Shown: positions 6,711 to 30,544 of the stretch, piece after piece
Layout of the letters: every line of letters starts with the position of its first letter
Numbering within the stretch: position 1 is the stretch's first letter
From: a virus
IMG/VR virus record: IMGVR_UViG_3300046452_000229
Span: 1-34,935 of that record
DNA length: 34,935 nucleotides
Direction: 5' to 3' (one strand)
Notes under the pieces: model-generated
Databases searched by the model: none
The model's input: only the letters and a program-made list of their open reading frames with translations
Told to the model about the DNA's origin: nothing
Made by a program: the position numbers and the translations under genes

Positions 6711-7877
6711 TTAGGCGGCTTCAAGCACTTCGGTCATCCATTCATTGGTGACTTCGAAAAGGAAATTCGGGTTCTCGGCCGGCGGTACGTCGGTGAAGCG
6801 AATGCGCCAATACACCTTGCCCTGCTCGATCTGGCTGGCCGTGTTCAACTCATGGTCGGCATACACCTCGAAGTTGATCACCGCGCCCTGATTCTTCAGA
6901 TCACGCATGAACGCCTCCAAGCCGTCGGTGACGTCCTTGACGTAGGTCTTGGTGATTGAGCGGTCGACCGCCCATTTGTGACCCGCCTGCACCGCATCCA
7001 TGAGGATGAACAGCGTGCGCACCCGGGTGACAAAGGCCCACTTCGGATCGCTGGACAGCGTGCGGTTGCCCCACAGGCGGTAGCCGTCGTCGCGAATGAT
7101 CGTGGTGATCTTGGCGTTGTTGAGCAGGTTGGCCCGGCAGGTTTCGTCGCCGTCCAGGTACTCGACGGCGCGGGTGGTGCCGGTGATGCCGACAAACTCC
7201 TTGTTCGACGGCGACGCCCAAAAACCGTAGGTCGCATCGGTCCAGGCGAACAGACCCGCCGTCCAGGCCGAGCCCGGCGCATCGACCGTGGCACTGGTGC
7301 CGGTGTCCCAGAACTGCACGCCCGGGTCGACCATGAACAGGTTTCGACTGCCGAAGTTATCGGCATAAGCCATGGCGGCCTCATCGGTGGTGCAGGGTCC
7401 GTCGATAATGCCGATGGCCCGCAGCTTCTGCGCCAGGCTATCGAGCGCGGCGGCCACCGCTTGTGTGGCCGAATGCCCCGGCGCGATCAACAGCCGCGGT
7501 TGGGCGTTGAACAGGCTTTTGCCATCGAGCAACGCCTGCAGGCCGGTACGCTGCCCCGAGGCCAACACCCCGCCGATGATCGCCGAGGTTTGCAATGCGG
7601 CGTCTTCCAGCTTGGGCACGCCGATGGCGACGATCACCGCCTTGGCTTTGCTGTAGATCGCCTGGCAGGCCTTGGTGATCGCAGCACCGGCGCCGAAGGC
7701 GGCGATGGCTTCGCGTTCGGTGGTGATCAGTTTTAGCTCGCCGGCCTTGGCCGTGCCGCCACCGATGACGCCCGGGGTGAAAGTGTCACACAGTCCAATG
7801 ATCGAGGACGACGGTAACGAGATGGTGCGTGCGCCGGTATCGACCGACGTGGTCGTGACGCCGTGAAAGAAACTCAT
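6711..7877 (-). CDS. FI: Tail sheath protein, P2 gpFI-like
   Basis: This 388-residue contractile sheath subunit opens with MSFFHGVTT and an IGLCDTF segment, as in P2 FI. It carries RLWGNRTLSSDPKWAFVTRVRT at about residues 265-286, the most conserved part of phage sheaths, and ends with a beta-rich region (INFEVYADHELNTASQI, GKVYWRIRFTDVPPAENPNFLFEV). This shows the tail is contractile (myovirus-type). GGAG lies ten bases before the ATG. Two hairpins stand in the gap upstream of it, so the gene may need its own promoter or antitermination. Confidence 0.96.
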   Translation of the reverse strand: MSFFHGVTTTSVDTGARTISLPSSSIIGLCDTFTPGVIGGGTAKAGELKLITTEREAIAAFGAGAAITKACQAIYSKAKAVIVAIGVPKLEDAALQTSAIIGGVLASGQRTGLQALLDGKSLFNAQPRLLIAPGHSATQAVAAALDSLAQKLRAIGIIDGPCTTDEAAMAYADNFGSRNLFMVDPGVQFWDTGTSATVDAPGSAWTAGLFAWTDATYGFWASPSNKEFVGITGTTRAVEYLDGDETCRANLLNNAKITTIIRDDGYRLWGNRTLSSDPKWAFVTRVRTLFILMDAVQAGHKWAVDRSITKTYVKDVTDGLEAFMRDLKNQGAVINFEVYADHELNTASQIEQGKVYWRIRFTDVPPAENPNFLFEVTNEWMTEVLEAA

Positions 7878-7891
7878 AAGGCTCTATCTCC

Positions 7892-7922
7892 ATAAACGAC
7901 AAGGCCCCGCATAAGCGAGGCC
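7892..7922 (-). terminator. Second hairpin upstream of the sheath gene
   Basis: On the minus strand GGCCTCGC (7922-7915), a four-base loop and GCGGGGCC (7910-7903) pair fully, counting one U-G pair, and are followed by TTGTCGTTTAT. The T-run is interrupted, so this is a weaker terminator than the one 40 bases before it. Confidence 0.45.
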
Positions 7923-7954
7923 GTGAGGGCTGTTCGTGTTGCGCGTAACGGAAA

Positions 7955-7983
7955 AGAAAACGCCCCGTCAGTGCGGGGCGTTT
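7955..7983 (-). terminator. Intrinsic terminator after the tail fibre genes
   Basis: The arms AAACGCCCCG (7958-7967) and CGGGGCGTTT (7974-7983) form a 10-bp perfect stem with a six-base loop. On the minus strand the stem is followed by a T-rich stretch. It begins on the stop codon of the fibre assembly gene and would separate the fibre block from the sheath gene. Confidence 0.75.
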
Positions 7984-8551
7984 ATTGGGGTTCTACGGGG
8001 GCCGGCTCAGGCTCGGGCGACGGCAACGAATCCGGCCAACCTTGGGTCAGCATGTCATCGCTGTAGCTCCCCATTTCAATCGCGCGCAGCAATGTCAGCT
8101 CGCGATCAAAGCAGGCCTGTACGTGCGCACGCACAGCCGTGGCGACCTCCAGAATGCCCGAGGCTGCCAACTCCACGAACCCCGAGACTGTTTTGAAGTT
8201 GCAGACATAGACCGGATCCATCAGCGCCGAAACAGCCGTTCCGGCGATCAGCGACTGGCTGTCGCGAGAGGTATCAATGCCCATGCCATTTACGACGATG
8301 CCCTGGCCCTCACGCTGGAAGCGCTCCGACGCGATGAGCGACGTTAGCTCTTCGATGGTTCGGACAGGCACGATGGGCTCGCTGAACACCCATGTGTCAC
8401 CCTCCTGAAGCGCCGTCCAACCCACAGCCACACTTACGTCATCTGGCACAGCAACCCACACAAGATCAGGGTGGAACATGCGAGTAATATCGCCCGCTGT
8501 TTTGAGTAGCTCGAACACGACTCCGCTATCAATACGTGCGTAATTTTTCAT
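7982..8551 (-). CDS. Tail fibre assembly protein with DUF4376-like domain
   Basis: This 189-residue protein sits directly downstream of the tail fibre gene (TAATG overlap), the usual place of a fibre chaperone. The N-terminal part (MKNYARIDSGVVFELL, then EGDTWVFSEP) resembles Pseudomonas fibre-assembly proteins. Residues about 75-155 fit DUF4376: RFQREGQGIVVNGMGIDTSRDSQ, VYVCNFKTVSGFVEL, AAVRAHVQACFDRELTL-type pattern. The C-terminal tail is Pro/Glu-rich (SPEPEPAPVEPQ). It probably helps fold or attach the fibre. Confidence 0.8.
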   Translation of the reverse strand: MKNYARIDSGVVFELLKTAGDITRMFHPDLVWVAVPDDVSVAVGWTALQEGDTWVFSEPIVPVRTIEELTSLIASERFQREGQGIVVNGMGIDTSRDSQSLIAGTAVSALMDPVYVCNFKTVSGFVELAASGILEVATAVRAHVQACFDRELTLLRAIEMGSYSDDMLTQGWPDSLPSPEPEPAPVEPQ

Positions 8552-10344
8552 TATGCGTATTCCTCAAGCAGCATTTTCCCAGGCATACCTGCGACACCCG
8601 ATCTGGCAGCAGTAGATGGAGGGGTTGCTATCCCACTTGAGCCAGCTCCCGGCCCTGTTCCTGGATAGCCAGCTCCTGAAAGCCCAGCCACTGCACCGCC
8701 GGCTGCAAATTCAGAATCCCCACCGGCGCCGGAAAGCGTGCCCGATGCCACATTTATGGGACCCGTACCGTTGCTTCCACTACGAGCAATCAGGTTTGCA
8801 CCACTTGGCCTGGCTCCACCGGAAGTACCACTTGTTATGAAGCTACTGGTAGACGCAAACGCCGTACCAGCTGCACCACCGACTGATCCAGGCGCAGAGA
8901 CGAGAGCGCCAAGTGACGTGGTACCACCATTGCCACCATTTCCGCCGGGCGCTCCAGCAATGCCAGCCACACCGATGAGGACTTCTTGACTGTCACCAAT
9001 CTGCGCAGCCGTCAGCAGTGCCTCGGCATAACTACCGCTACCAGTCCCGCCGGAAAGCGCGTATTGCGTTGATGATGTGGCCGGGGTGCCACCGCTGCCA
9101 CCGCTCGCGCCGACCATTCGCACCCGTACCGATTTCATCTCCGACGACGGGATGTACGTCCCATTTACAGTGAACTCTATGGTCCTTAAAAGGCGCCCGT
9201 ACTCGTTGTTTCTGACCCGCTGCTCCAAAGCAGCAATATCAATGCTTCCCTGATTGATCGGCGCGTTCCAGGCCTTGATGCACCACATCACCGCCAAGTT
9301 GCGCGGGCGAGCCTCAGCCCCGCCTGAAGAATTGGTTGCGACGTTATTGTTTGAGCCGAATTGCTGAACATACAGGCGCGAAACCGTGCCTGACTGAAAT
9401 GTATCGACGACCTCATCGTAGGTGGTCGCGTGATTGTGAGCCTTGTTGTCATCGGCCTGCCAGCTGCCGATCGCACGACCAGGATCAACACCACGGTTAT
9501 GGTCCCAGCCCCGCAAGAACTCACCGCGCGACTCGGGCAAACGGAAGTTACCAACGCCCTCATTACCCTTGTTGAAGGTGGTCCCGAGGTAAGCCGCAAG
9601 ATCCGGATAGACCGCAATGCTTTTCACACTACCATCCAGCTCAAGAAACCCCGGCGCCGCTGTCCCAGCGGGAAACGCCACGGTGGCTCCGACAGGTAAT
9701 GCCGAGGCCTGCGCAATCATCGCCTCGATCTCGGCCTTGGTGTAACTGTCGGTGATGCCAAATCCCGCCAGCGTGTTTGGATTCGACCCGGACACGAACA
9801 CCCCGCGATCATTCACCGTGACCTTGGTATAGGTCCCGGCGACTTTGTTGGCGGGTAGCAGACCGTTAACCGTCTCATCGACGTACTGACGCGTCGCCAG
9901 CACTACCGAGGGATCGATTTTCAACTGAATATTCGCGGTGCCGCTGGTGATGATGTGCATCCGCACCACCTGATTACGCCCCGACCCTTGAGCCAGCAAA
10001 GGCTTGTAACTTGGCGCTGCGTTGGCTACCGCTGAGAACACACCGTCCTTATCTTCCAGCGCCAGTTCGCGAATCCACCAGCCGCCCACGTCCGGCGGCA
10101 ATACCAGCTCGGCAATCAAAATGTTGTCGTCGGTGGGAGAGACACGCAACTGATTGAGCTGTGCTCGATAGACCTGATTGACCAGCTTGGTCTGTGATGG
10201 GCTAGGCACCGGATCGGTACCGTTCGCATCACCGATTAGCATGTAGCGCGGCTCCCACGGGATACCCAGCGCGTCGCAGTTGGTTTTCTTGGCGGCCCCC
10301 TGAGTCGTGAGCATGCCGCCGAAAATAGAGTTTTTATCAACCAT
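8551..10344 (-). CDS. H: Tail fibre protein, P2 gpH-like, with collar domain and glycine-rich tip
   Basis: This 597-residue receptor-binding fibre has three parts. The N-terminal particle-binding region (about 1-155) is of the tail-collar/DUF3751 type, with KLVNQVYRAQLNQL and GGWWIRELALED. The middle (about 230-380) holds a phage tail collar domain (FPAGTAAPGFLELDG, then NFRLPESRGEFLRGWDHNRG). The C-terminal half is very rich in Gly, Ala and Ser, with runs such as GAPGGNGGNGG, ending LLEEYA. Glycine-rich tips of this kind bind surface receptors through packed polyglycine helices in some phages. ATG at 10344 overlaps the end of gpI by eight bases. Upstream in-frame codons lie inside gpI and are not used. 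Confidence 0.93.
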   Translation of the reverse strand: MVDKNSIFGGMLTTQGAAKKTNCDALGIPWEPRYMLIGDANGTDPVPSPSQTKLVNQVYRAQLNQLRVSPTDDNILIAELVLPPDVGGWWIRELALEDKDGVFSAVANAAPSYKPLLAQGSGRNQVVRMHIITSGTANIQLKIDPSVVLATRQYVDETVNGLLPANKVAGTYTKVTVNDRGVFVSGSNPNTLAGFGITDSYTKAEIEAMIAQASALPVGATVAFPAGTAAPGFLELDGSVKSIAVYPDLAAYLGTTFNKGNEGVGNFRLPESRGEFLRGWDHNRGVDPGRAIGSWQADDNKAHNHATTYDEVVDTFQSGTVSRLYVQQFGSNNNVATNSSGGAEARPRNLAVMWCIKAWNAPINQGSIDIAALEQRVRNNEYGRLLRTIEFTVNGTYIPSSEMKSVRVRMVGASGGSGGTPATSSTQYALSGGTGSGSYAEALLTAAQIGDSQEVLIGVAGIAGAPGGNGGNGGTTSLGALVSAPGSVGGAAGTAFASTSSFITSGTSGGARPSGANLIARSGSNGTGPINVASGTLSGAGGDSEFAAGGAVAGLSGAGYPGTGPGAGSSGIATPPSTAARSGVAGMPGKMLLEEYA

Positions 10345-19245: not shown

Positions 19246-21258
19246 TTAGTAGCCCGCACGACTGCGGGTGCCTCGCCCTCGAGCGACTGCTCGACGCGGT
19301 ACCGGTGCAACTGGTTGTTCGGTGTTGAACAGGGTTGGCTGCAGCAGCTGCTGCTCCAACTGATCCCACTCGTGATCGCGCAGCAGGTGGGTTTTCAAGC
19401 TGCGTGCGGCGTGCAAGGCGTACACCTCACAGTCCAGCGCCTCGTTACGGCGACCGGCCTTTTTCTGCCAGACCATCTTGCTGGGGTTGCGCGGATGCGG
19501 CGCCAGCACTTCGTTGGTGAGCTGCTCGTAATAGTCCGAGCGGATCTCGCTGTACCAGTGCATGCGCCCCGGCCCGACACCCTTCAGCCGTAGACGGCCA
19601 TCGATCAACGTCTTGGCTTTGTGCGTGCCAACGATGTGCACCCGCAGGCCGTATTTCGCGGCCTTGGTGTTGTCTTGTGAGGTGTCCACCGACTGCGGCG
19701 GCTTGGTGAAGATCTCCTTGTCACGGCTGTCGATGGACGCGCCCTTGATCGCCATCACGTTGTAGCGCTGACGGTCGCGCACGTAGGTGTACACCGCATC
19801 GCTGGTATTGCCGTCCGAGCTGTCGATGCTGACCGCCGACACCGCCAGCTGCGCACCACCGCCTGTGGGAATTGGCCGGGAAATGACCCGATCCAGTTCC
19901 TGCCAGACAGCATCATGCGGGTCGATGGGATTGCCGTGCAGTTCGCCCCAATACAATCGCCAGGATTCTTCGCCTCGGCCCCAGCCGGTGATGACCAGTG
20001 CGAGGCGGTCACCTTGCACGTCCACGCCGACGGTGATCAGCAGCACCCCTTTGGGCGCCGTCAGTTCGCCATAAGGTTCGGCGCGTTTCTCCAGCTCGTC
20101 GGTCTTCGGCGCATCGCTCTGGTATTCGTAGCTCTCGCCTTTGGAGCTGTTCACGAAGGCGATCATCGGCCCGATGTTGCCCTGCGCCGCCGCATGTTCG
20201 GCCTGGAGCTTTTTCTCCATCAGTACCTGGAAGCGCGATCCCCAAAATGTCGCGTACAGCTCGTTGAGGATGTAGCCGGCGATCCCGCGAAACTCCGACG
20301 TGGCCGACCAGCGCCCGTGCTTGAGGTTGGCGTTTTTCTGGTTGTCGTCCCAGATCGCACCGCAATGCGGGCACGAGTAGAACGTCCTCTCCGGCCGCTT
20401 CTTGCCGTACACCTCGTGCAGGTACTGCGGGTCTTCATCGCAGTGCAGATTGTCGAAACTCAGCGCGTGTTCCTGGCCACATTCGTGACACGGCACCAGG
20501 CCCACGCGCTTGTCCGACAGTTCCAGCTCCGCATCGATAGCCGACAGGCCTTTGATGGTCGGCGTGCCGCCGATGATGATCTTGGAGCGGCGAAAGGTTT
20601 TCAGACGCTCCTTGGCCAGCTTGATGCTGTCGCCCTGCCCGCGCAGGTTGAGGTTGCAGTCGTCGGGCTCTTCGATGGCTACCCGTGGCACTGGCGTGGA
20701 TTTCACGCTGGCCGGGCTATTGGAGCCGACCATTTTCAGGAAGCCCCCGGGAAAACGCTTGAAGTCCTGACGCTGTTGCAGCTTACGGCTGCGCAGGTCG
20801 ACTTTCTTGCGCAGCCGAGGCGTGGCCTCGATCATCGGTTCGAGCTTTTCACCGACGTACTGCTTGGCGGCTTCGGCCTTGGGAAACAGCACCAGGATGG
20901 GTGACGGGTCGATGTCGATCCATTTGCCCAGGGCATTTCCCAGAACGCCAGAAGTCCAAGCAACCTGTGCCGATTTACGCCCAACGATCTCGCTGACTTT
21001 TGGATCGTCCAACGCTTCCAGTGGACCGCCGGGCCAAATGAGGTGTGGCGTCACGTCAAACCGATACTTACCAGGACGGGCCGCCTCCTCCGGTGCGAGC
21101 CAGCGGTATTTGTCCGCCCACTCGATGATGCTCATGCGTGGCGGTGGTGCCCACCTCCTGCAGGCGCCGCGCAGCGCGTTACTCGCGGTCTTCTTCAAAG
21201 CCCTCCGGATGGTCCGGTTCGTCAGAATCTCCAGCTGACTGGGTATCATCCTTGTCAT
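19246..21258 (-). CDS. Terminase large subunit, lambda gpA family
   Basis: This 670-residue protein is the packaging motor and cos-cutting nuclease. The ATPase part has the adenine/Walker A region IVGRKSAQVAWTSG at about 91-104 and the Walker B-like RVAIEEPDD at about 192-200. A zinc-binding insert CHECG...CPHCG follows. The C-terminal nuclease begins near ITVGVDVQGDRLALVITGWG and includes VDTSQDNTKAAKYGL. Lambda gpA has 641 residues, so this is full length. It overlaps the small subunit gene by 80 bases. Confidence 0.96.
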   Translation of the reverse strand: MTRMIPSQLEILTNRTIRRALKKTASNALRGACRRWAPPPRMSIIEWADKYRWLAPEEAARPGKYRFDVTPHLIWPGGPLEALDDPKVSEIVGRKSAQVAWTSGVLGNALGKWIDIDPSPILVLFPKAEAAKQYVGEKLEPMIEATPRLRKKVDLRSRKLQQRQDFKRFPGGFLKMVGSNSPASVKSTPVPRVAIEEPDDCNLNLRGQGDSIKLAKERLKTFRRSKIIIGGTPTIKGLSAIDAELELSDKRVGLVPCHECGQEHALSFDNLHCDEDPQYLHEVYGKKRPERTFYSCPHCGAIWDDNQKNANLKHGRWSATSEFRGIAGYILNELYATFWGSRFQVLMEKKLQAEHAAAQGNIGPMIAFVNSSKGESYEYQSDAPKTDELEKRAEPYGELTAPKGVLLITVGVDVQGDRLALVITGWGRGEESWRLYWGELHGNPIDPHDAVWQELDRVISRPIPTGGGAQLAVSAVSIDSSDGNTSDAVYTYVRDRQRYNVMAIKGASIDSRDKEIFTKPPQSVDTSQDNTKAAKYGLRVHIVGTHKAKTLIDGRLRLKGVGPGRMHWYSEIRSDYYEQLTNEVLAPHPRNPSKMVWQKKAGRRNEALDCEVYALHAARSLKTHLLRDHEWDQLEQQLLQPTLFNTEQPVAPVPRRAVARGRGTRSRAGY

Positions 21259-21703
21259 AGTCAGACAGCCTCCTCAGGATGGATTCAATGGGATCTCTAA
21301 TCAGTAGGTCGTCCACCTCGACGCCGTAGCGCGCAGACAGCTCCGCCGCCAGCGCATCTGGAAAGGTGTTGAGCAACTCGACTTTGGCCGAGGTGATCAT
21401 GGCTTCGAAACGTTCGACCAGGTCTGCCGCGATCACCACCTCTCCCAGGTCCTTGGCCAGTGCCAGCTCTTCGCGATTGGCCCTGACCCGGTCGAGCCGG
21501 TCGCGGGAGGATTCTTTCTTGCCGTTGAGCGAGGCCTGATGCATCAGCCACTGGATGACCGCTTCGGTGTCGTACTGGTTTTCGTTGCCCCGCCCCAGGC
21601 CAAACTCGATTACGGGCATGCCGTCGTTCTGCCAACGGGTCAGGGTGCGTTCGTCGCGGCCAACAATCTCACTCAAGTCGGCCTTGCTGACTGTCTTGCC
21701 CAT
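21179..21703 (-). CDS. Terminase small subunit, lambda Nu1-like
   Basis: This 174-residue protein has an N-terminal winged-helix DNA-binding domain (KADLSEIVGRDERTLTRWQNDGMPVIEFG, with QYDTEAVIQWLM) and a helical oligomerisation region (SSRDRLDRVRANREELALAK). The C-terminus is acidic (DYDKDDTQSAGDSDEPDHPEG). Nu1-type proteins bind the cos region and position the large subunit. The non-coding stretch just before it is therefore the likely cos. Confidence 0.92.
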   Translation of the reverse strand: MGKTVSKADLSEIVGRDERTLTRWQNDGMPVIEFGLGRGNENQYDTEAVIQWLMHQASLNGKKESSRDRLDRVRANREELALAKDLGEVVIAADLVERFEAMITSAKVELLNTFPDALAAELSARYGVEVDDLLIRDPIESILRRLSDYDKDDTQSAGDSDEPDHPEGFEEDRE

Positions 21704-21834: not shown

Positions 21835-22173
21835 CTAGGTGTGGTCGGTCGAAGCCGACTCGGAAACGCCCAACCGCTTGGCGACCCAGCGTTCGTAAAG
21901 GCCGATGGCGACATCGGCGCCAGCCATCGCGGTCAGGCAACCCAAAGCGCCCGCCGTCCAGATCGACATGCCAGCGGCGATCATCAGCATCATCGCTGTC
22001 ACACCGCAGGCGATACAGGCACCGGACCGCAACGCGAGGCGGCGTAACAACGCCCAGCCCCGCGCCCCGTCCTTATCGGCTCGCCACATCTCCCCCGAGA
22101 CACCGCCGACCAGGGCCAGGACGATCACTAACCAGATCGGCATCTCTGCCAGCGCTTGTTGCTCGTTTGTCAT
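21835..22173 (-). CDS. Holin-like membrane protein (holin family III / LydA type)
   Basis: This 112-residue protein has an N-terminal membrane segment (MPIWLVIVLALVGGVSG, about 11-27), a short basic loop (WRADKDGARGWALLRRLALRSG), and two more hydrophobic stretches at about 51-65 and 69-85. The C-terminus is hydrophilic. This matches three-segment phage holins that open the inner membrane for the endolysin. It lies beside the packaging genes, far from the endolysin, as in several Pseudomonas phages. ATG at 22173 is chosen for its GGAG seven bases upstream; longer in-frame versions lack a ribosome site. Confidence 0.8.
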   Translation of the reverse strand: MTNEQQALAEMPIWLVIVLALVGGVSGEMWRADKDGARGWALLRRLALRSGACIACGVTAMMLMIAAGMSIWTAGALGCLTAMAGADVAIGLYERWVAKRLGVSESASTDHT

Positions 22174-22191
22174 TTCTCGCTCCGACAGAGA

Positions 22192-22220
22192 GGCCATCAC
22201 TGTGATGGCCATTCTAGAAT
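22192..22220. promoter_or_regulatory. Two adjacent palindromes in the holin/DUF1883 divergent gap (candidate operator)
   Basis: GGCCATCACTGTGATGGCC (22192-22210) is a perfect 9+1+9 palindrome. It is followed at once by ATTCTAGAAT (22211-22220), also palindromic and containing a possible -10 box TAGAAT for the plus-strand gene. The pair lies between divergent starts at 22173 (minus) and 22266 (plus), where a regulator could control one or both. No T-run follows on either strand, so it is not a standard terminator. Confidence 0.5.
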
Positions 22221-22265
22221 TTCCTGCTAACGTCAAATCGCCTATTGAAAGGGCTAGGAGGCCAC

Positions 22266-22532
22266 ATGAACTTTTTGCACTCACGGGAATACTTGGAGGA
22301 AGGCGATATCGTTGTTGTGCAGTGCTCTCACCAGTGCAATGTGCGCTTAACAACCGATACCAATTTCGCAAGCTTCAAAAGGGGTGGTGCTCATCAATAC
22401 CTGGGTGGGTTCTACAAAATGTTGCCAGCGCGTATTGCCGCACCTCACTCCGGTTACTGGAACATAACGATTGATCTAGGGGGTGGAAGTGCAAACATCC
22501 GCCATTCGATCAACATCATCAGAAACAGCTAA
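22266..22532 (+). CDS. DUF1883 family protein (moron)
   Basis: This 88-residue protein is clearly of the DUF1883 family: MNFLHSREYLEEGDIVVVQC, a middle NFASFKRGGAHQYLGGFYK, then SGYWNITIDLGGGSANIRHSI. The fold is a compact beta barrel of unknown activity. From memory, the domain also occurs fused to TIR domains in bacterial proteins, which hints at a sensor or binding role. It is the only plus-strand gene in the late region, has lower GC than its neighbours and a strong AGGAGG site four bases before the ATG. It overlaps tail-to-tail with the next minus-strand gene by 57 bases. These are signs of an independently acquired and expressed gene. Confidence 0.82.
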   Translation: MNFLHSREYLEEGDIVVVQCSHQCNVRLTTDTNFASFKRGGAHQYLGGFYKMLPARIAAPHSGYWNITIDLGGGSANIRHSINIIRNS

Positions 22533-22682
22533 CTCACCACGACACTGATACAACGCTGATTCGAGCGCATCTCGAATCAGCATCAGCGTGGAATCCTTTG
22601 CGTACGAGGGAGATGTAAAACCTCCTACCGCACTTCTCGCCCATATCAGTGCTCCATCACCATCGACTACACGCACTTCCAT
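22476..22682 (-). CDS. Small hypothetical protein
   Basis: This 68-residue protein begins MEVRVVDGDGALIWARSAVGG and ends VDRMADVCTSTP. The ATG at 22682 has AAGGGGA seven bases before it; a TTG further upstream has none and lies beside a terminator. It contains a helical stretch LMLIRDALESALYQCRGEL. I do not recognise a family. As the first gene after the early-operon terminator it could belong to the late transcript. Its 3' end is antisense to the DUF1883 gene. Confidence 0.6.
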   Translation of the reverse strand: MEVRVVDGDGALIWARSAVGGFTSPSYAKDSTLMLIRDALESALYQCRGELAVSDDVDRMADVCTSTP

Positions 22683-22710
22683 ACGTAATCCCCTTCTTGA
22701 TTCCAAGAAA

Positions 22711-22739
22711 CGCAAAAACCCGGCGCAATGGCCGGGTTT
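22711..22739 (-). terminator. Intrinsic terminator at the early/late boundary
   Basis: AAACCCGGC (22716-22724) and GCCGGGTTT (22731-22739) form a 9-bp perfect stem with a six-base loop; on the minus strand it is followed by TTTTTG. It stops transcripts coming from the Q-like gene and origin region before the late genes, the place where a Q-type antiterminator would act. Confidence 0.78.
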
Positions 22740-23220
22740 GGTGGTGTGGTGCCTGCCGCTCTCTGCGGTCGCACCTATCGAAGATGACTACTTTTTACAG
22801 GTCGAATTTCCTGGCAGCAACCCCACTTTAATGCCACCCGGTGAATAAGTGGGTAACACCGGGTGAACGCCTAGCGAATGTCGGTGAATATCCCACCACG
22901 GCATTCTGTTGTTTTAGCGTTGTCCCATATGTCCCATGCTTCGAAATCTCTATGGGACGCCTGAGAGCGCCTAAATTCGGAGCCTCGCCCCATTGTCCCA
23001 TCTGTATTCTCTTTTCTCGTGTAAAGAAGAAAATCGAAAAACACGCGTGCGCGCGATAGCGCGTACAGCTCTGCGCTTCGCTCACACGGGCGGGAGGCGT
23101 TTTGAGCTGGGACAATGGGACAACCCAACAAATACAAGGCCCGCGCTTGTCCCATTACGTCGAAACGCAATGGGACAAGGTGGGCCAATGGGACAGCAAT
23201 AGCCAGAGCCAAACCTGGGG
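22740..23220. other. Non-coding region with octamer repeats; candidate replication origin
   Basis: No convincing gene is present in about 480 bases. The stretch holds a 9-bp inverted repeat CACCCGGTG/CACCGGGTG (22835-22843, 22857-22865), the ATGGGACA octamer array at 22921-23195 (separate entry), and an alternating CG-rich segment (about 23043-23062). It directly follows the primase-helicase and Q-like genes. Phage origins often lie in or beside their initiator genes, so this is the best origin candidate in the window. A late promoter could also be here. Confidence 0.45.
22921..23195. repeat. ATGGGACA / TGTCCCAT octamer array
   Basis: Full copies of TGTCCCAT start at 22921, 22930, 22994 and 23148. 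Full copies of ATGGGACA start at 23115, 23170 and 23188. Near copies are CTGGGACA at 23107 and ATGGGACG at 22952. Nine copies in 275 bases, in both orientations, cannot be chance. Iteron-like binding sites for the primase-helicase or an origin-binding protein are the simplest reading. Confidence 0.8.
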
Positions 23221-23583
23221 TCACGCAGCCTTCCCCATCAGCATGCCGGCGATGTATTCGTGAGCCTCGTGCAAGCGCTCGTAGTAGGTTTTGCGGGAGC
23301 AGCCGCAATAGATGATCTTCTGCGTCAGGAAGCTGTCGTGATTGCAGTAGTGCTCGCGCACAACCACCGACAGCTGCGGCGGCAGATGCTTGTTTACGAT
23401 CAGCTCGATATCCGCCGATTCGTCCAACAGCACCCGACTGCCCCGCGTACCACGGATCAACTCGCCCTTGCACTCGATCAGCATGGCGATCATGTTGCCG
23501 CCGCCCAACTCCGCCCCACTGTCGTGCGGGCTGTGCAGATCCTCTGCCCACAGCTTGAGCATTTCGTCGATTCGCTTAATCAA
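23221..23583 (-). CDS. Q-like late antitermination regulator
   Basis: This 120-residue protein has a C-terminal helix-turn-helix-like region (VVREHYCNHDSFLTQKIIYC, GCSRKTYYERLHEAHEYIAG) of the kind found in phage Q antiterminators and related late regulators. The TTG start at 23583 is preferred because GAGGAG lies seven bases upstream, inside the end of the primase gene; a weaker ATG occurs at 23562. It is the last early gene and is followed by a strong terminator and then the late genes. That is the textbook position of Q. The several terminators inside the late operon fit such a mechanism. Confidence 0.65.
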   Translation of the reverse strand: MIKRIDEMLKLWAEDLHSPHDSGAELGGGNMIAMLIECKGELIRGTRGSRVLLDESADIELIVNKHLPPQLSVVVREHYCNHDSFLTQKIIYCGCSRKTYYERLHEAHEYIAGMLMGKAA

Positions 23584-25792
23584 AGCAAGGCTCCTCGAAC
23601 GCTTCCCGCTGCAATGCCGAGGCGCCGCCCCACCCTGTCGGCTTCTTGTACGCCCAAGGACGCTGACCGCTTTTCGCCAATGCCGGCAGACGCACACGCC
23701 GCCAACCCAGCCGGTGCATGATCGCCCCCACCCGTATCTGCTCAGGCTTGCTCCAGTGCCCGTAGTCCAGCTTCAGCGCGTTGGCCAGCACTTCGCTGCC
23801 GGTGGTGGTTTCGCCGATCTGCGACTCTTCAAGCCAGGTCAGAATTGGCCCTTCCCACTCGTCCACCACAAAGCGCTCGTCCTGCTCCTCGCCGAACATC
23901 GCCGCCTCGTCCAGCGTCACCCACCAAAGGTCACCCGCCTCGTAGCAGAACATTGCCTCGGCCCACAGCTGGTCGCGGATCGTGCGCAGCAGCTCCAGAT
24001 CCACCTTGGTACAGGCCACCGGCCAATAACGACGGTTACCGGTCGCATCCTTCAGGTATTCGTCCTGGTTGGTCGTGCCAACGAACACACACTGGCGTGG
24101 CACATCCATGGTTCTGCGGCCGTAACTCTCGCGGTAGGTGTCGGTCGATGCCGAAAAGAACTGCTTGGCCTTGGTGCTTTCGGCCTTGTTGAAACTGTCC
24201 AGCTCGCCCAGCTCAACGATCCACTTACCCCGGATCGCCTGAAACCCGTCCTTGTCACCCAGGGCGAAAGGCGTATCCATAAACCATTCGCCGCCGAGGA
24301 TGTTCATTGCCGTCGACTTACCGGCGCCCTGCGCGCCTTCGAGGATCATCACCGAGTCGGCCTTGCAGCCAGGTTTCATCACCCGCGCCACGGCCGAGAG
24401 CATCCAACGCTTGCCGACTTTCGACGAGTATTCGCTTTCCTTCACACCCATGACATCCGTGAGCCAGCTTTCAAGGCGCGGTGCACGATCCCACTCCAGC
24501 TTTTGCAAGTACTGTCGCACCGGGTGAAAGGCATGGTCATGGGCAACCACACTCACAGCCTCGATCACATGAGACGCCTTAACCCGCAGGTTGTACTGCT
24601 GCGCGAGCCACTTCATGACACGCATATCGTCGATATCGGCCCAGTCTCCCGTGCCGCCACCATAAGGTGCAGCCCGTAACTTCACGATCTTCGAGCTGAA
24701 AGCGCTGTAGCTGATCACTCCGGCCCATCGCTCGTCATTGGCCAGAATCAGCTCGACGTTCTGCATGTGCGCAATCAACGCACCGCTTTCACTGCGGGCC
24801 AGCAGATCCTTCCAACCGCCCGCTGCCGGCGGCCTGACCACCGCCAGCACCTGGCGGCGCACCGCGTCCAAACCTTCGGCGACATGCAGATCATTGAAGT
24901 CGGTCCACTTGTCTTCCCGTTCGCCGGAAAAGATCGGCGCGACCACCTGACCTCCAACGACCAAAGCGGCGTTGTTCGCCTTTTCTTCACCGGGGTTCCA
25001 AGGCTCACCGTTCGGGCGCTTGGTCTTCCAGTCATCGTCACGACAGACAATCAAAGGGCAACCCGGGAAGCGTTCGCGCATGGCCTTGCAGACCACCAAT
25101 AGATTGCCCGCATCGAAGGCGATAGCCACCGTTAGCGAGGTCGCCATGTGCAGGCTGGCGCCGGTGGCATAGCCCTCGCACACCAGCACTGGCTCACCTG
25201 GATCAGGGTGCGGCCCGATCAAGTGAAAGGCGCCCTCCTTGGACATCCCGTAGGGCCAATAGGATTTGTCCCGGCCGGTGTCTTCCTGTTTGGTGGGAAA
25301 TACAACTTGCAGGCCGACGATCTCATCCCGCACGTTGCACATAGGCACCAAAAACGCGCCGGAGCGCGGTGCGTATCGGACGCCGAAACCGACGATCTGC
25401 TTTCGGTCCAGATAGTCGCTTCGGCCCTTTTCCGGCATGCGCTTGAACATGCCCGCCGCTCGGTTCGCGGCTCGACGTGCGGCATTAGCCTTAACCTCTG
25501 CGGCGCGACGCTTGGCCTCCTCTTGCCGAGCACGCATGACCTCACGTTCTTCCGGCGACATTCGTCCCGGCTTTACCTTCACCTTCTGCGACTCACCCGA
25601 ACGCCAGTCACCGAAACTGCCGAAGATCAGCGTTTCGTTTTTCTCTGTGTGGTGTTCGTGGACAACGTACCAACCGTTCTTTTCCGCCCCCCTGTCCTGC
25701 GCTGTTTTGCACCGCGTCAGCTTGCCAAAAGTCAGCGGTAGTTTCGGCTCAAGACCAAAGTCTACGAATTGACCCAATACCTCATCGAGCAT
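23576..25792 (-). CDS. Primase-helicase, TOPRIM plus VirE/D5-type helicase
   Basis: This 738-residue replication protein has a Lys/Arg-rich linker at about 80-120, then a TOPRIM primase part with VCEGYATGASLH (Glu206) and CRDDDW (Asp252-254) and WTDFND at 296-301. The C-terminal half is a VirE-type superfamily 3-like ATPase with Walker A LEGAQGAGKST at 484-494, then IVELGELDSFNKAESTKAKQFF and a sensor-like FVGTTNQDEYLKD and GNRRYWPV. Such proteins prime and unwind phage DNA. It overlaps the genes on both sides by 8-11 bases. Confidence 0.93.
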   Translation of the reverse strand: MLDEVLGQFVDFGLEPKLPLTFGKLTRCKTAQDRGAEKNGWYVVHEHHTEKNETLIFGSFGDWRSGESQKVKVKPGRMSPEEREVMRARQEEAKRRAAEVKANAARRAANRAAGMFKRMPEKGRSDYLDRKQIVGFGVRYAPRSGAFLVPMCNVRDEIVGLQVVFPTKQEDTGRDKSYWPYGMSKEGAFHLIGPHPDPGEPVLVCEGYATGASLHMATSLTVAIAFDAGNLLVVCKAMRERFPGCPLIVCRDDDWKTKRPNGEPWNPGEEKANNAALVVGGQVVAPIFSGEREDKWTDFNDLHVAEGLDAVRRQVLAVVRPPAAGGWKDLLARSESGALIAHMQNVELILANDERWAGVISYSAFSSKIVKLRAAPYGGGTGDWADIDDMRVMKWLAQQYNLRVKASHVIEAVSVVAHDHAFHPVRQYLQKLEWDRAPRLESWLTDVMGVKESEYSSKVGKRWMLSAVARVMKPGCKADSVMILEGAQGAGKSTAMNILGGEWFMDTPFALGDKDGFQAIRGKWIVELGELDSFNKAESTKAKQFFSASTDTYRESYGRRTMDVPRQCVFVGTTNQDEYLKDATGNRRYWPVACTKVDLELLRTIRDQLWAEAMFCYEAGDLWWVTLDEAAMFGEEQDERFVVDEWEGPILTWLEESQIGETTTGSEVLANALKLDYGHWSKPEQIRVGAIMHRLGWRRVRLPALAKSGQRPWAYKKPTGWGGASALQREAFEEPCFD

Positions 25793-26012
25793 GCCGGGCC
25801 TCCCGCGATTCTTCGATGGACTGGCAGCTCACGCACTGAGTGCAACCCGCTTGAGCTAACCGACGAGACTCTGGAATCGGATCGTCACAACTCTCGCAGA
25901 ACAGAAATGAATGCAGCGCCAAAGCGGGCTTAGCGGCGTTACGACGGGCAGCCAGGGCTTGATCAAGACGCTCCTGCACCAAGTCATTGGCAAAGTCGAC
26001 GATATCAACCAC
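25782..26012 (-). CDS. TraR/DksA-type zinc finger protein
   Basis: This 76-residue protein has Cys39-x2-Cys42 and Cys57-x2-Cys60 forming the C4 zinc finger of the TraR/DksA family, after an N-terminal helix (DIVDFANDLVQERLDQALAARR). Short phage members such as TraR bind the RNA polymerase secondary channel and reprogramme host promoters without ppGpp. The GTG start at 26012 gives the typical TraR length; upstream codons lie in the cII-like gene, which it overlaps by eight bases. Confidence 0.85.
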   Translation of the reverse strand: MVDIVDFANDLVQERLDQALAARRNAAKPALALHSFLFCESCDDPIPESRRLAQAGCTQCVSCQSIEESREARHAR

Positions 26013-26523
26013 GGTCGATACCCCGCGTTGTGTGATTGACGTAAGTGGCGCGGTTGAACATCCCCAGCAGCCCTTGAATACCGCGAAACACCTGCAGGCG
26101 GATCGCCGCCAACTCATGGTCACTGACCACGCCGTCACCGATGCTTTTGGCCCATGTCTCAGCCAAGTCAGCTACTTGCCGAAAATACTCAGCAATGCCG
26201 GTGGTCAAGGTTTCAGGCATGTCGTTGGTGTACGCCTCGGCTAATTCCTGCCAGGTCGTATCCCCCACCAACGCGTGTACCGCATCCAGAATGCGGCGGT
26301 CCTTGGTCAGCTCGAGGATCTCGCCAAATTCCTGAATATTGACCGTATGGCTGGGGTGCGTTGGAGATAGCTTGTGCTGCAGCGTGGTGGCGTTTCTGCC
26401 GGTGGTGGCGGCAATTGCAGCGGCGCCGCCGGGATAGTCCCGAGCAGCATGGTAAAGCGCTAGATCGAGCGGCAGGATCTCCCGCTGCGCCCGTTCTACA
26501 GAACTCAGAGCGATTCGGCTCAT
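26005..26523 (-). CDS. CII-like phage regulatory protein
   Basis: This 172-residue protein belongs to the phage CII / CP76 regulatory family. Landmarks are LDLALYHAARDYPGGAAAIA (about 19-38), the helix-turn-helix ATTGRNATTLQHKLSPTHPSH (about 39-59) and IQEFGEILELTKDRRILDAVHALVG. In P2-like and lambdoid phages such proteins influence the lysis-lysogeny choice. AAGGA lies before the ATG. A 331-base structured gap separates it from the cro-like gene upstream. Confidence 0.85.
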   Translation of the reverse strand: MSRIALSSVERAQREILPLDLALYHAARDYPGGAAAIAATTGRNATTLQHKLSPTHPSHTVNIQEFGEILELTKDRRILDAVHALVGDTTWQELAEAYTNDMPETLTTGIAEYFRQVADLAETWAKSIGDGVVSDHELAAIRLQVFRGIQGLLGMFNRATYVNHTTRGIDRG

Positions 26524-27187: not shown

Positions 27188-27835
27188 ATGAAAATTTCAG
27201 ATACCCGCCTACAAAATTTCCGAAGAGTCCTGGGCGAGAGGAAGCTCCGCCTGACAGACGTTGCCGATCTGCTGGGTAAAGCCCCCGCACAGGTCAGCGC
27301 GTTCGGGGGGAAGAACCCCACTAAAGGTATCGGAGATCAGATAGCTCGCGAGATTGAGAAGGCGCTGGGCCTGCATAGCGGTTATCTCGATATGCCGTAT
27401 GGGTTGGGCGAGTTCAACAATGCGACGGTAATAAGCCATACAGGGCGTAAATTACCCGTGATCGGATCAATTGCTGCTGGGGCTTGGTGCGAGTCTCACG
27501 GTAGCTTCGACCCGCGAGATGCTGAAGAATGGATTGACGCTCCCGGTCCAGTGGGACCACGTGCTTTTATCCTTCGAGTAGAGGGAATCAGCATGGAGCC
27601 GAAATTTCTAGAAGGTGACAAGATCGTAATCGACCCGTCTCTTGAAGCGCTCCCTGGGCATTTTGTAGCAGCAAAAAGAACCAGAGACGAAGCTGCAACG
27701 CTTAAACAACTTAAACAAGAAGGTATTGAGCGCTACTTGTATGCGCTCAATCCTGATTGGCCAGAGCGTATAATTAAAATGAATGAGGAATGGTCGATAT
27801 GCGGCAGAGCCAGGTGGAAAATCTCTGACTTATAA
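27188..27835 (+). CDS. cI: CI-type repressor, S24 (LexA-like) autocleaving
   Basis: This 215-residue prophage repressor has an N-terminal helix-turn-helix (LRLTDVADLLGKAPAQVSAFGG, about 20-41) that binds the operators just upstream. The C-terminal S24 domain has a likely Ala97-Gly98 cleavage site (SIAAGAW), nucleophile Ser135 (EGISMEP) and Lys163 (GHFVAAKR), so RecA-stimulated self-cleavage and SOS induction are expected. The ribosome site is weak, as for several CI genes. It is convergent with the TOPRIM gene 42 bases away, with no clear terminator between. Confidence 0.93.
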   Translation: MKISDTRLQNFRRVLGERKLRLTDVADLLGKAPAQVSAFGGKNPTKGIGDQIAREIEKALGLHSGYLDMPYGLGEFNNATVISHTGRKLPVIGSIAAGAWCESHGSFDPRDAEEWIDAPGPVGPRAFILRVEGISMEPKFLEGDKIVIDPSLEALPGHFVAAKRTRDEAATLKQLKQEGIERYLYALNPDWPERIIKMNEEWSICGRARWKISDL

Positions 27836-27877
27836 ACGGTTCGTAAATCTCCCAATTAATGAAACCACCCTTACAGT

Positions 27878-28801
27878 TTATCTATGCACCATAGACTGAA
27901 ATCTGTTTTTAATGTAAGACAAACTTGGCTGCTGCACATCCTGCAACAATATTTGTTCCATATGCGAACTCGAAAAATTTGCAGTTAATGCATACATACA
28001 GTTTTGATACACTTCTCGAACGCAATACTGACACTTTGCAACTGCGTTTGTTTTACACATCTCAGGCAACGATGCCAACTTTGATATCAAGGTATCAATA
28101 AAAACCTGAAACACCCACTTCCCCTTACATATAGTCAAGATAGATTCCCAGCTTTTGTCGACCCCTATGCTATCTGCAAAAGCAGCAAGCTCTTGCTCTT
28201 TTGCAATCAATCTATCAGGTTTTCCTTGCTTAATAATCGACCTGATTTTTTCACTGTAACCTAGCTCAGCATCATAGTTCCGATCGCAGGCATTCTTTAA
28301 CGCCTCCAAGGAGCACAAATATAGAACATCCAAATCACTCTTTATTTCATTGAATATTAACTCGCAGCTTTCTTCAGACAGAAGCTCACCAGTAATCCTT
28401 GTAGTTTTCTCAGCTATATAGCGTACAGCCTCCTTGCTAACAAAATGGCTTTCAATTGAGTAATAATGCAATATCAATAAGGCATCATCCTCAAAAATCT
28501 CTTTACGATAATAACGAGCATCGCGATCAATTATCCCTAACACATAGGGCGTAATATCCATCATTCCACTACGCTCTCTAATTTCAGAAATATTTCTAAT
28601 TACCCCGACACATCCAGGTGAAGCCACTAAATTCTCACTAGCAAACACACTACATCTTCTACCAACACTTTCAGCTAATCGTTGATAAATAGCAATATCA
28701 TCTCTACCTTCAACAATTAATACCGGAACCTTTGTCATAATAGCTAAATTAAGTAACTCTACAGCTTTATAAGATAGGCTTTCAGGCAGCACAGAAGTCA
28801 T
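27878..28801 (-). CDS. ariB: DUF4435/TOPRIM effector, PARIS AriB-like
   Basis: This 307-residue protein has the TOPRIM-like core of DUF4435: VPVLIVEGRDDIAIYQRL with Glu31, YVLGIIDRDARYY with Asp92 and Asp94, and HYYSIESHF with Glu117. In PARIS, AriB is the nuclease toxin held by the ATPase AriA and released when a phage anti-restriction protein is sensed; it then cuts host tRNA. The ATG at 28801 is chosen for AAGGA eight bases upstream; an in-frame ATG nine bases earlier has no proper site. It follows the ATPase by 11 bases as one operon. Base composition is much more AT-rich than the phage core, a sign of transfer. Family is seen in sequence; the PARIS role is inferred from the pair. Confidence 0.8.
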   Translation of the reverse strand: MTSVLPESLSYKAVELLNLAIMTKVPVLIVEGRDDIAIYQRLAESVGRRCSVFASENLVASPGCVGVIRNISEIRERSGMMDITPYVLGIIDRDARYYRKEIFEDDALLILHYYSIESHFVSKEAVRYIAEKTTRITGELLSEESCELIFNEIKSDLDVLYLCSLEALKNACDRNYDAELGYSEKIRSIIKQGKPDRLIAKEQELAAFADSIGVDKSWESILTICKGKWVFQVFIDTLISKLASLPEMCKTNAVAKCQYCVREVYQNCMYALTANFSSSHMEQILLQDVQQPSLSYIKNRFQSMVHR

Positions 28802-28812
28802 GCTTATCATCC

Positions 28813-30186
28813 TTAATTCACTTTCTCAGGCTTAAGTTCAACGAGACACCACGGATTCTCTTGAGCAATAGCAGGGCTATGCGAGGCGACAATAATTTGG
28901 GTGTCTGGAGCAATTTTCTTGAGCAGTTCGAGTAACGTACGCTGCCAAAGCATATTTAACGAAATCTCCGGTTCATCTATGAAAATGAAGTCACGAGAAC
29001 GACCTGCAACCACTATCAGCGCTAGGAAAGTAAATATATGACGTTCACCGCTCGAAAGAACGTCAATCGAATGGTGCTCATCCCCATCAATTACGATATA
29101 GAGCTCATCTTTTGTTACGACTAGCTCCTTACCCTCAACCAAGAAACTATTAAAAGTATCCACGAAAATATTGATAGCACTTAGCAATTGCCTCTCAATC
29201 TGAAGCTCAGTAGTCATGTTTATTATAAGCTGACATAAAATCTGATTCTCCATCAACTTGACAACTTCATCAGGAGAAGTAAAACCATTCAAAAAACTTA
29301 TGACACGATTTTTAAACTTATTCTCGGAGCCGTCCTTAAGAGCTTCAATAATTCGTTCTTTACTTCGCAAAATCAAGCCGCCAAAATCATTTGGCATCTT
29401 CTTTAATTCCGGCGCGCCAAGCTCACTTTGTTCAATAGCAACTGCTAAGGTATCGAAAAGAGCATTTTGGATTTTACCTGTAGCAATATTTTTAGCGACT
29501 CTATAACGCTCCAATAGCAGGCTTTCAATATTACTTATTTTTATATTATGAAGATAAGGATGAGCATCCTCAGGATCAAAGCCCTCTCGATTACCTCTTG
29601 ACCTTACTGCTTGAAAATTTCGAAGATGGACGACTAAACCTTCCGAAAACTCTACGGCCCGGCTTCGAGGTATGTCTCGAAAACCTGCCGCTCCTATATA
29701 TCGAAGTATATCCTCTACTTCTAAGCGTGCCGGCAATGTGGTAGTACCACGTTCAACCCCCATGGACAACGAACTGGAATATGAAAGCTCTGACCCCTCA
29801 ATCTCTCGCCAATCATACATTCCATCTAAGTTCAACGATGAAGCATCCACGCTTTCCATCGCCACTTGATAGCCGTCAGGAAAAGGTTGCACAGATACCG
29901 ACTGAATACCACCATCATCTACGCGATAATCAATCTCGGCCCTTTTAACACCTTCTTTTTTTAGTATATTTGAATCTTTGTTTAGAACAGCATGAATCAA
30001 CTTCAAGAAGGTTGTCTTCCCACAGCCATTATCTCCATAGATAACGGATGCTGCATCACGCGAAAAATACACCTCAGCTCTTCTGTTTGGAGATTGAAAA
30101 CCATAGAAGGCCACACGCTCAAGCCTAATTACCGCATAACTTTTTTTCGGTATACCGGACGGTAAAATTTTCCTTCTCAGCGCCAT
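28813..30186 (-). CDS. ariA: AAA/ABC-type ATPase, PARIS AriA-like
   Basis: This 457-residue ATPase of the AAA_15/ABC-like kind has Walker A YGDNGCGKTTFLKL at about 50-63 and a signature-like LSSGERH at about 377-383. Walker B FIFIDEPEISLN follows at about 400-411, then a switch His in IIVASHSP at about 431-438. Between them is a long helical insert. ATPase plus DUF4435 partner in this order is the PARIS gene pair, in which AriA forms the sensor scaffold that sequesters AriB. A TTG at 30240 could lengthen it by 18 codons. The ATG at 30186 has GAGGG six bases upstream, and the TTG lies before the predicted transcription start. AT-rich composition marks it as cargo. An OLD- or Gabija-like role is less likely, since the TOPRIM is on a separate protein of DUF4435 type. 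Confidence 0.82.
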   Translation of the reverse strand: MALRRKILPSGIPKKSYAVIRLERVAFYGFQSPNRRAEVYFSRDAASVIYGDNGCGKTTFLKLIHAVLNKDSNILKKEGVKRAEIDYRVDDGGIQSVSVQPFPDGYQVAMESVDASSLNLDGMYDWREIEGSELSYSSSLSMGVERGTTTLPARLEVEDILRYIGAAGFRDIPRSRAVEFSEGLVVHLRNFQAVRSRGNREGFDPEDAHPYLHNIKISNIESLLLERYRVAKNIATGKIQNALFDTLAVAIEQSELGAPELKKMPNDFGGLILRSKERIIEALKDGSENKFKNRVISFLNGFTSPDEVVKLMENQILCQLIINMTTELQIERQLLSAINIFVDTFNSFLVEGKELVVTKDELYIVIDGDEHHSIDVLSSGERHIFTFLALIVVAGRSRDFIFIDEPEISLNMLWQRTLLELLKKIAPDTQIIVASHSPAIAQENPWCLVELKPEKVN

Positions 30187-30219
30187 AGATCCCTCTAACA
30201 ATTCAAGTAAATATTTTTC

Positions 30220-30248
30220 AATGTAGCTGGGTAGTAGCAAAGTGCCAA
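30220..30248 (-). promoter_or_regulatory. Promoter of the ATPase/TOPRIM module
   Basis: On the minus strand TTGGCA (30248-30243), a spacer of exactly 17 bases and TACATT (30225-30220) give a near-consensus sigma-70 promoter. Transcription would start near 30213, leaving about 27 bases before the ATG at 30186. It lies 34 bases outside the nearest repressor operator, so the module should be expressed in the lysogen. Confidence 0.6.
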
Positions 30249-30267
30249 GTAAAACCCTTGGCTTTTT
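30244..30267 (+). terminator. Plus-strand intrinsic terminator before the left operators
   Basis: GCCAAG (30244-30249), a seven-base loop and CTTGGC (30257-30262) are followed by TTTTT on the plus strand. It would stop antisense transcripts running from cI through the defence module before they reach the left early operon. It overlaps the -35 box of the opposite-strand promoter. Confidence 0.6.
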
Positions 30268-30281
30268 GACCAGCAGACAAA

Positions 30282-30327
30282 AAACCTTTGAGGTTATTTT
30301 TCTTGCGCAAGTTAACCTTTGAGGTTA
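30282..30327. promoter_or_regulatory. Left operators (two sites)
   Basis: AAACCTTTGAGGTTA (30282-30296) and TAACCTTTGAGGTTA (30313-30327) are near-identical 15-base sites with the same TAACC-N5-GGTTA form as the right operators; centres are 31 bases apart. They show that the repressor also controls the left plus-strand operon. Confidence 0.75.
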
Positions 30328-30330
30328 TTT
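30303..30330 (+). promoter_or_regulatory. PL, early left promoter
   Basis: TTGCGC (30303-30308), a 16-base spacer and TTATTT (30325-30330) match PR in spacing and in carrying an operator within the spacer. The start would be near 30337, about 30 bases before the first left-operon gene. Confidence 0.5.
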
Positions 30331-30367
30331 TTTACGCCTCTCTTCACCACAGAGCGAGGCAATACCC

Positions 30368-30544
30368 ATGCACACCACCGCCACCTTGCACGTCCACCCA
30401 GCCGCTGCTGACCCCTTCCGAATCTTTGGGATCCGCCGTTTGGCTCGCGAATACGGCTGCTTGTTTGTCACCACCAAACCGAAGCAGAAAGCCCCCACCG
30501 CTCCCGCGCCATTCGACCCGAACGGCGGAGGGCATGCAGCATGA
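30368..30544 (+). CDS. Small left-operon protein, function unknown
   Basis: This 58-residue first gene of the left early operon starts with ATG after CGAGG and ends ATGA, overlapping the next start. It contains ADPFRIFGIRRLAREYGC and a basic VTTKPKQKAP stretch, then GGGHAA at the end. I do not recognise a family; early small basic phage proteins often modify host functions. Coupling to the following gene and the ribosome site support that it is real. Confidence 0.6.
   Translation: MHTTATLHVHPAAADPFRIFGIRRLAREYGCLFVTTKPKQKAPTAPAPFDPNGGGHAA

Follow-up and report, generated by a model that had tools for sequence, protein, structure and literature searches.

An octamer array with dyad layout 3' of a VapE-type primase-helicase gene is a predicted origin of replication in a temperate Pseudomonas phage

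We propose that an array of octamers lying 3' of the primase-helicase gene is where a temperate Pseudomonas phage starts to replicate its DNA and is served by the phage's own primase-helicase, a reading that we place, from comparisons of sequences, at a probability of roughly 0.86. The window analyzed here (34,935 bases) is an entire IMG/VR virus record and reads as a lambda-like prophage; it carries genes for terminase and holin together with CII-like, DksA-like and S24-repressor genes. The initial annotation had suggested an origin whose iteron-like sites the primase-helicase would bind, and this suggestion is supported: exact octamers occur nowhere else in the window, homologous primases again have such an array on their 3' side, and variants of the sites covary with residues of a predicted winged helix in the C-terminal part of the protein. 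A related protein family is reported to use its C-terminal domain to bind iterons located immediately downstream of its gene (PMC7581432). The proposal gives hundreds of contigs of temperate Pseudomonas phages a defined candidate origin and initiator.

Octamer sites and their dyad layout

Seven exact copies of ATGGGACA occur in the window, every one within 22921-23195, compared with a mean of 0.85 and a maximum of 4 in shuffled versions of the window. Matches with at most one mismatch number 25 across the window against 24.85 expected, and nine of them are in the array; because such copies elsewhere are at the chance level, only the array is special, and we ruled out the octamer as a genome-wide motif. 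These counts bear out the seven exact and two near octamers, in both orientations, that had been reported for this stretch, the near copies being ATGGGACG and CTGGGACA. The nine sites are thus real, but the total is 11 (7 exact, 2 with one mismatch and 2 with two mismatches; Table 1), since alignment with relatives added ATGGGGCG and GTGGGCCA, whose positions are conserved. We count these two weak sites of the 11 against the origin reading.

The claim that the 275 bases are non-coding also held, because the central spacer changes in length among relatives by non-multiples of three, leaving no open reading frame in the array that looks real. The features said to flank the array fared less well: inverted repeats of 9-10 bp, reported as a 9-bp flanking pair, are mostly the octamer sites themselves, and the CG-alternating segment is at the array centre, at about 23041-23063. 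As for position, the array is on the 3' side of the primase-helicase gene as described, but the 120-aa phrog_4300 gene stands between the two.

The earlier account did not include the layout. Around an axis at ~23053.5, 10 of the 11 sites have mirror partners, with spacings outward from the axis of 8-34-22-9 on the left and 8-33-22-10-8 on the right, and each half-array contains one inverted single site. Pairing of 10/11 was reached in 1 of 2000 trials when gaps and orientations were shuffled, and in 135 of 2000 when orientations alone were shuffled with positions fixed. The AT-rich patch occupies one side of the spacer, and the spacer centre is CG-rich. As single-stranded DNA the spacer folded no better than shuffles (z = -0.85), and scans for tRNA, Rfam and sigma-70 matches at the array found nothing. 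A GC-skew check lent the origin reading no support; within the window, skew is negative throughout 22001-26500 and does not switch at the array.

Table 1. Positions of the octamer sites and neighbouring features in the window (left and right in window orientation)
Feature	Position	Strand	Remarks
Terminase genes	21179-21703 and 19246-21258		
Intrinsic-terminator-like hairpin	22716-22739	-	Faces late genes
Strongly conserved block	22768-22842	-	Downstream of array; kept across 37 representatives; outside origin
Site ATGGGACA	22921-22928	-	Left half, outermost
Site ATGGGACA	22930-22937	-	Left half
Site ATGGGACG	22952-22959	+	Inverted single site of left half; 1 mismatch
Site ATGGGGCG	22986-22993	-	2 mismatches; position kept in relatives
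Site ATGGGACA	22994-23001	-	Left half, innermost
Central spacer	23002-23106		105 bases around dyad axis
AT-rich patch	23005-23034		73% A+T over 30 bases; candidate melting region
CG-alternating palindromic segment	23041-23063		At dyad axis
Site CTGGGACA	23107-23114	+	Right half, innermost; 1 mismatch
Site ATGGGACA	23115-23122	+	Right half
Site ATGGGACA	23148-23155	-	Inverted single site of right half
Site ATGGGACA	23170-23177	+	Right half
Site GTGGGCCA	23180-23187	+	2 mismatches; position kept in relatives
Site ATGGGACA	23188-23195	+	Right half, outermost
phrog_4300 gene	23221-23583	-	120 aa, with a TTG start assigned by eye; Q-like judging from its position
Primase-helicase gene	23576-25792	-	738 aa; Toprim_3, VapE-like_dom, DUF5906; phrog_2249; proposed initiator
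C-terminal winged-helix codons (aa 647-716)	23645-23854	-	Proposed site-binding domain
Codon of aa 699	23696-23698	-	Column best matched to site base 3
Codon of aa 686	23735-23737	-	Column best matched to site base 1
Codon of aa 677	23762-23764	-	Column best matched to site base 8 (weak)

Conservation among relatives

Searches of viral and genome contigs with the primase and with phrog_4300 yielded 80 loci apiece. From 204 distinct downstream stretches we dropped three that were without the anchor block, aligned the remaining 201 and chose 37 representatives (<85% identity). Array position and spacing are conserved in all 37, with a spacer of 97-109 bases. The core of two G's and a C is kept at nearly all 11 positions (e.g., in 36-37 of 37 at R3-R6), and site bases 1, 3 and 8 are variable. 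These three bases are more alike within arrays than in column shuffles (0 of 2000 reached the observed likeness, a comparison that ignores remaining relatedness): across relatives the octamer changes as a set and the layout is kept. The densest 300 bases within 1400 bases 3' of the primase hold 3-10 T.GGAC cores in 36 representatives, and at least five cores per 300 bases were found in 31 of these 36 segments vs none of 200 other segments, which hold 0-4. Most relatives have a further gene between initiator and array, which we count against the origin reading. Text searches confined to open-licence literature turned up no account of this array.

A scan of viral contigs that started from the array instead of the genes gave at least 80 loci from at least 119 stretches. 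Among the 80 listed, 53 carry the primase, and the array is 3' of it in 53/53. The 27 listed without primase include two that end at a contig edge (L272 and L278) and one that retains the last 24 primase residues (L303); the remaining 24 are without the conserved block. An array is likewise kept in L148, a locus from another search with 46 primase residues left, and we count these two arrays beside primase remnants against the origin reading. Large ORFs scanned from 10 of the 27 listed primase-less loci encoded an AAA_25 ATPase domain in eight and PriCT_2 as well in five, so other replication proteins also adjoin arrays of this octamer unit. Phages at five loci (L256, L263, L285, L290 and L298) have PriCT_2/AAA_25 replicases, and in each a TGGGACA array occupies the 3' end of the replicase gene; in L298, L263 and L285 it falls within the open reading frame of that gene. 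Another locus, L421, encodes a Bro-N protein (7826-8641; PF02498, E = 1.2e-24) immediately before its array (8674-8848), and the C-terminal end of this protein shares 54% identity with the primase winged helix across 41 residues; it is possibly an origin competitor or regulator.

Marinobacter phage PS3 has a primase 47% identical to that of the window and an array directly 3' of the primase gene, with a different repeat unit, GGGGTGACC. With at most two mismatches allowed, PS3 has 14 sites, of which 12 have mirror partners about a single axis; a stricter pattern gives 10 of 11, and 0 of 2000 shuffles reached either value. With the dyad present and the unit different, the layout has been kept while the recognition sequence was replaced. 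PS3 was one of seven more distant phages examined; no array was found in Mano, FoX2, ep3 and PPpW-3. Corynebacterium phage Adelaide (L249:4326-4631, unit TGGGACAA) and Paenibacillus phage Bob (L250:4251-4537, unit CTGCAACA) have iteron arrays in the gap 3' of a VapE-type helicase gene, with sites in both orientations and without a convincing dyad, which we also count against the origin reading. A dyad as a general rule for all VapE helicases is therefore not supported.

Covariation of the sites with the primase-helicase

In a column scan of 191 complete primases, base 1 of the site was best matched by residue 686 (A with Ile in 19/19, G with Met in 170/172), base 3 by residue 699 (G with Arg in 134/134; the 57 non-G cases have 56 Lys and one gap) and base 8 by residue 677 (G with Pro in 19/19). 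We drew independent pairs from a FastTree tree of primase residues 1-640, on which the labels for bases 1, 3 and 8 change 6, 5 and 6 times, respectively. Residue 686 agreed with base 1 in 6/6 pairs (sign test, P = 0.031), the only scanned primase column to do so. Residue 699 agreed with base 3 in 4/4 supported pairs (P = 0.125; four pairs cannot reach significance), with residues 710 and 668 close behind. For base 8, agreement with residues 677, 700 and 703 in 2-3 of 4 pairs makes a tie suggestive but weak. Given the covariation of base 1 with residue 686 and of base 3 with residue 699, we propose the primase-helicase as the reader of the sites.

Held-out loci (L372-L454, 83 in all) served to check consistency and fall short of independent proof, many members coming from clades already seen; 4 were without primase and another 22, either duplicated or truncated, were set aside, leaving 57 new primase sequences. 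Base 1 had a G majority in 52/52 loci with M686 and was A in 3/3 loci with I686 and an array within 1400 bases; in the fourth I686 locus, L421, the array is farther away and its unit is ATGGGACA. Base 3 was G in 21/21 loci with R699, plus L421, and its top base was non-G in 35/35 loci with K699 (A, C, T ties included). Phages with the natural combinations I686/R699, M686/R699 and M686/K699 exist, and these I/M686 and R/K699 differences offer a readout of how a winged helix specifies origin sites. One further primase, in L376, has Gln at 686 and a downstream array with mixed T/G at base 1, possibly a third specificity.

The same data bear on the idea that the sites are bound instead by the phrog_4300 product, which as a Q-like regulator would control the late operon beginning immediately downstream. 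The phrog_4300 gene is the one nearest the array, the conserved block and terminator-like hairpin follow the array in the manner of the lambda order Q-pR'-tR', the PS3 array adjoins an antitermination-Q homologue (PF06530, E = 7.8e-10), and several phrog_4300 columns track base 1 in 6/6 pairs. We nevertheless consider this idea improbable. The accuracy of those columns for base 1 is at most 0.907 among those listed vs 0.994 for the primase, and no phrog_4300 column tracks base 3 (best 1.9 of 4 pairs). Linkage alone would favour phrog_4300 because its gene is nearer the array, and the observed fit does not favour it; its 6/6 columns for base 1 appear to reflect linkage. The PS3 array comes ahead of the Q-like gene, and five loci of one near-identical lineage, which we infer to be tailocin-like (L006 and L372-L375), keep phrog_4300 and the downstream conserved block with both primase and array absent. 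The array, for its part, can exist without needing phrog_4300. The block and hairpin (22716-22842) possibly resemble a late promoter with an early terminator, and no sigma-70 consensus was found in that interval.

Covariation between initiator and sites would be explained equally well by a partition or copy-control (incompatibility) array, or by a site that limits the initiator by titration, neither of them a start point, and iteron arrays elsewhere can have control roles. The window, however, has a single array, and its dyad symmetry about an AT-rich spacer, set at a constant distance, suits a start site, so that we see very little chance of a pure control function. The slimmest chance goes to a packaging (cos/cosB-type) site for the terminase small subunit, whose gene is about 1.2 kb away among nearby terminase genes; lambda cosB likewise has repeated sites. 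Against it, the site bases covary with the primase, and each of the Haddon and LPPA36 records has a terminus immediately upstream of terS, >1 kb from the array, which suggests that cos is there if the record ends are physical.

Proposed mechanism and comparison with known origins

The primase-helicase matches PF05272 (E = 1.4e-80). Its full-length model is poor (pLDDT 64, pTM 0.41); the best Foldseek match of this model is 7pds, PriRep1 with dsDNA (E = 5.7e-18), which the helicase part also matches in sequence (E = 2e-66). The C-terminal piece is predicted as a winged helix with a core pLDDT of about 90, in which residue 686 falls in the third helix (682-694), the predicted recognition helix, 677 in the turn preceding it, 699 in the first wing strand (698-701) and 703 in the wing loop. 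A PDB sequence search with this piece gave no match, and a structure search gave generic winged-helix matches (7pds_B, Z = 6.7 over 89 residues at 3.8 Å), with the P4 alpha domain absent among the structural matches listed.

The C-terminal domain of this self-loading VapE-type primase-helicase probably binds the array, as two opposed hexamers. The winged helix would bind the octamer sites, the protomers collected on each half-array would build a helicase ring, and one ring would be loaded from each half-array, the pair facing one another; melting of the AT-rich portion of the spacer would follow, and the Toprim primase domain of the same protein would begin bidirectional (theta) synthesis. More tentatively, we can picture the array as a template for ring assembly, read by a 686/699 site code, in an organization common to ordinary phages, a combined proposal that we find possible but would not yet bet on. 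Each half-array would then provide one site per hexamer protomer (6+6 in PS3, 6+5 in the window), and the mirror-placed sites would position the two opposed self-loading rings. The recognition helix and wing (686, 699, perhaps 677/703) would follow a simple code for bases 1, 3 and 8, under which phages could alter the specificity of their origin with all sites changing in concert. With this array geometry, the loading of a double hexamer by a bacterial-virus helicase can be tested directly.

Iterons of lambda-type origins are inside the initiator gene O, and the array here is outside the primase gene. The alpha protein of phage P4 is, like the present protein, a primase-helicase fusion, and uses a C-terminal winged helix to act on repeated sites. 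P4 replication needs two separated sites, ori and crr; the exact octamers of the window are all in one array, in a record that may be incomplete.

The array also resembles the origins of PICI and SaPI satellites, in which the array directly follows the gene for a VapE/D5-type initiator helicase, with two iteron sets around an AT-rich region and a C-terminal domain that reads the iterons (PMC6092414 and PMC7581432). The same arrangement appears here: the array is 3' of the helicase gene in all 53 listed array-first loci with primase and directly 3' in PS3, two site sets flank a 105-base spacer with a 73% AT patch on one side, and the VapE-type helicase (PF05272, 7pds) has a predicted C-terminal winged helix. 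The phages here differ in being full-size, with terminase, portal and tail genes, and in having 11-12 sites in a measured dyad, an inverted single site in each half and usually a gene in between. The comparison thus extends to full-size phages a layout described as exclusive to phage satellites, and, if the ring-template proposal holds, satellite-type origin organization would be widespread in ordinary phages. A PICI rep-ori segment is reported to sustain plasmid replication in E. coli (PMC6092414).

SCCmec Cch2 is likewise a Primase_Cterm/D5-type helicase; on its own, its C-terminal domain binds direct repeats that lie downstream of the gene (PMC7581432). It differs in having three short iterons only (AAGTG) and a separate polymerase-type primase, and the passages cited describe no dyad. 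Opposed site sets that load two hexamers facing each other are also reported for the SV40 T antigen origin (PMC9894130), whereas T antigen binds through an N-terminal domain (PMC7581432), and we claim no homology.

The window is not itself a PICI satellite, which would be without its own capsid, portal and tail genes: it carries TerL and TerS, and the related U5 record has portal, terminase and Clp protease genes. A stretch of ~40% GC at 27500-30500, inside a prophage of 60% GC, contains a DUF4435 gene (27878-28810) and a 475-aa ORF (28813-30240) and is perhaps an acquired accessory or defence module.
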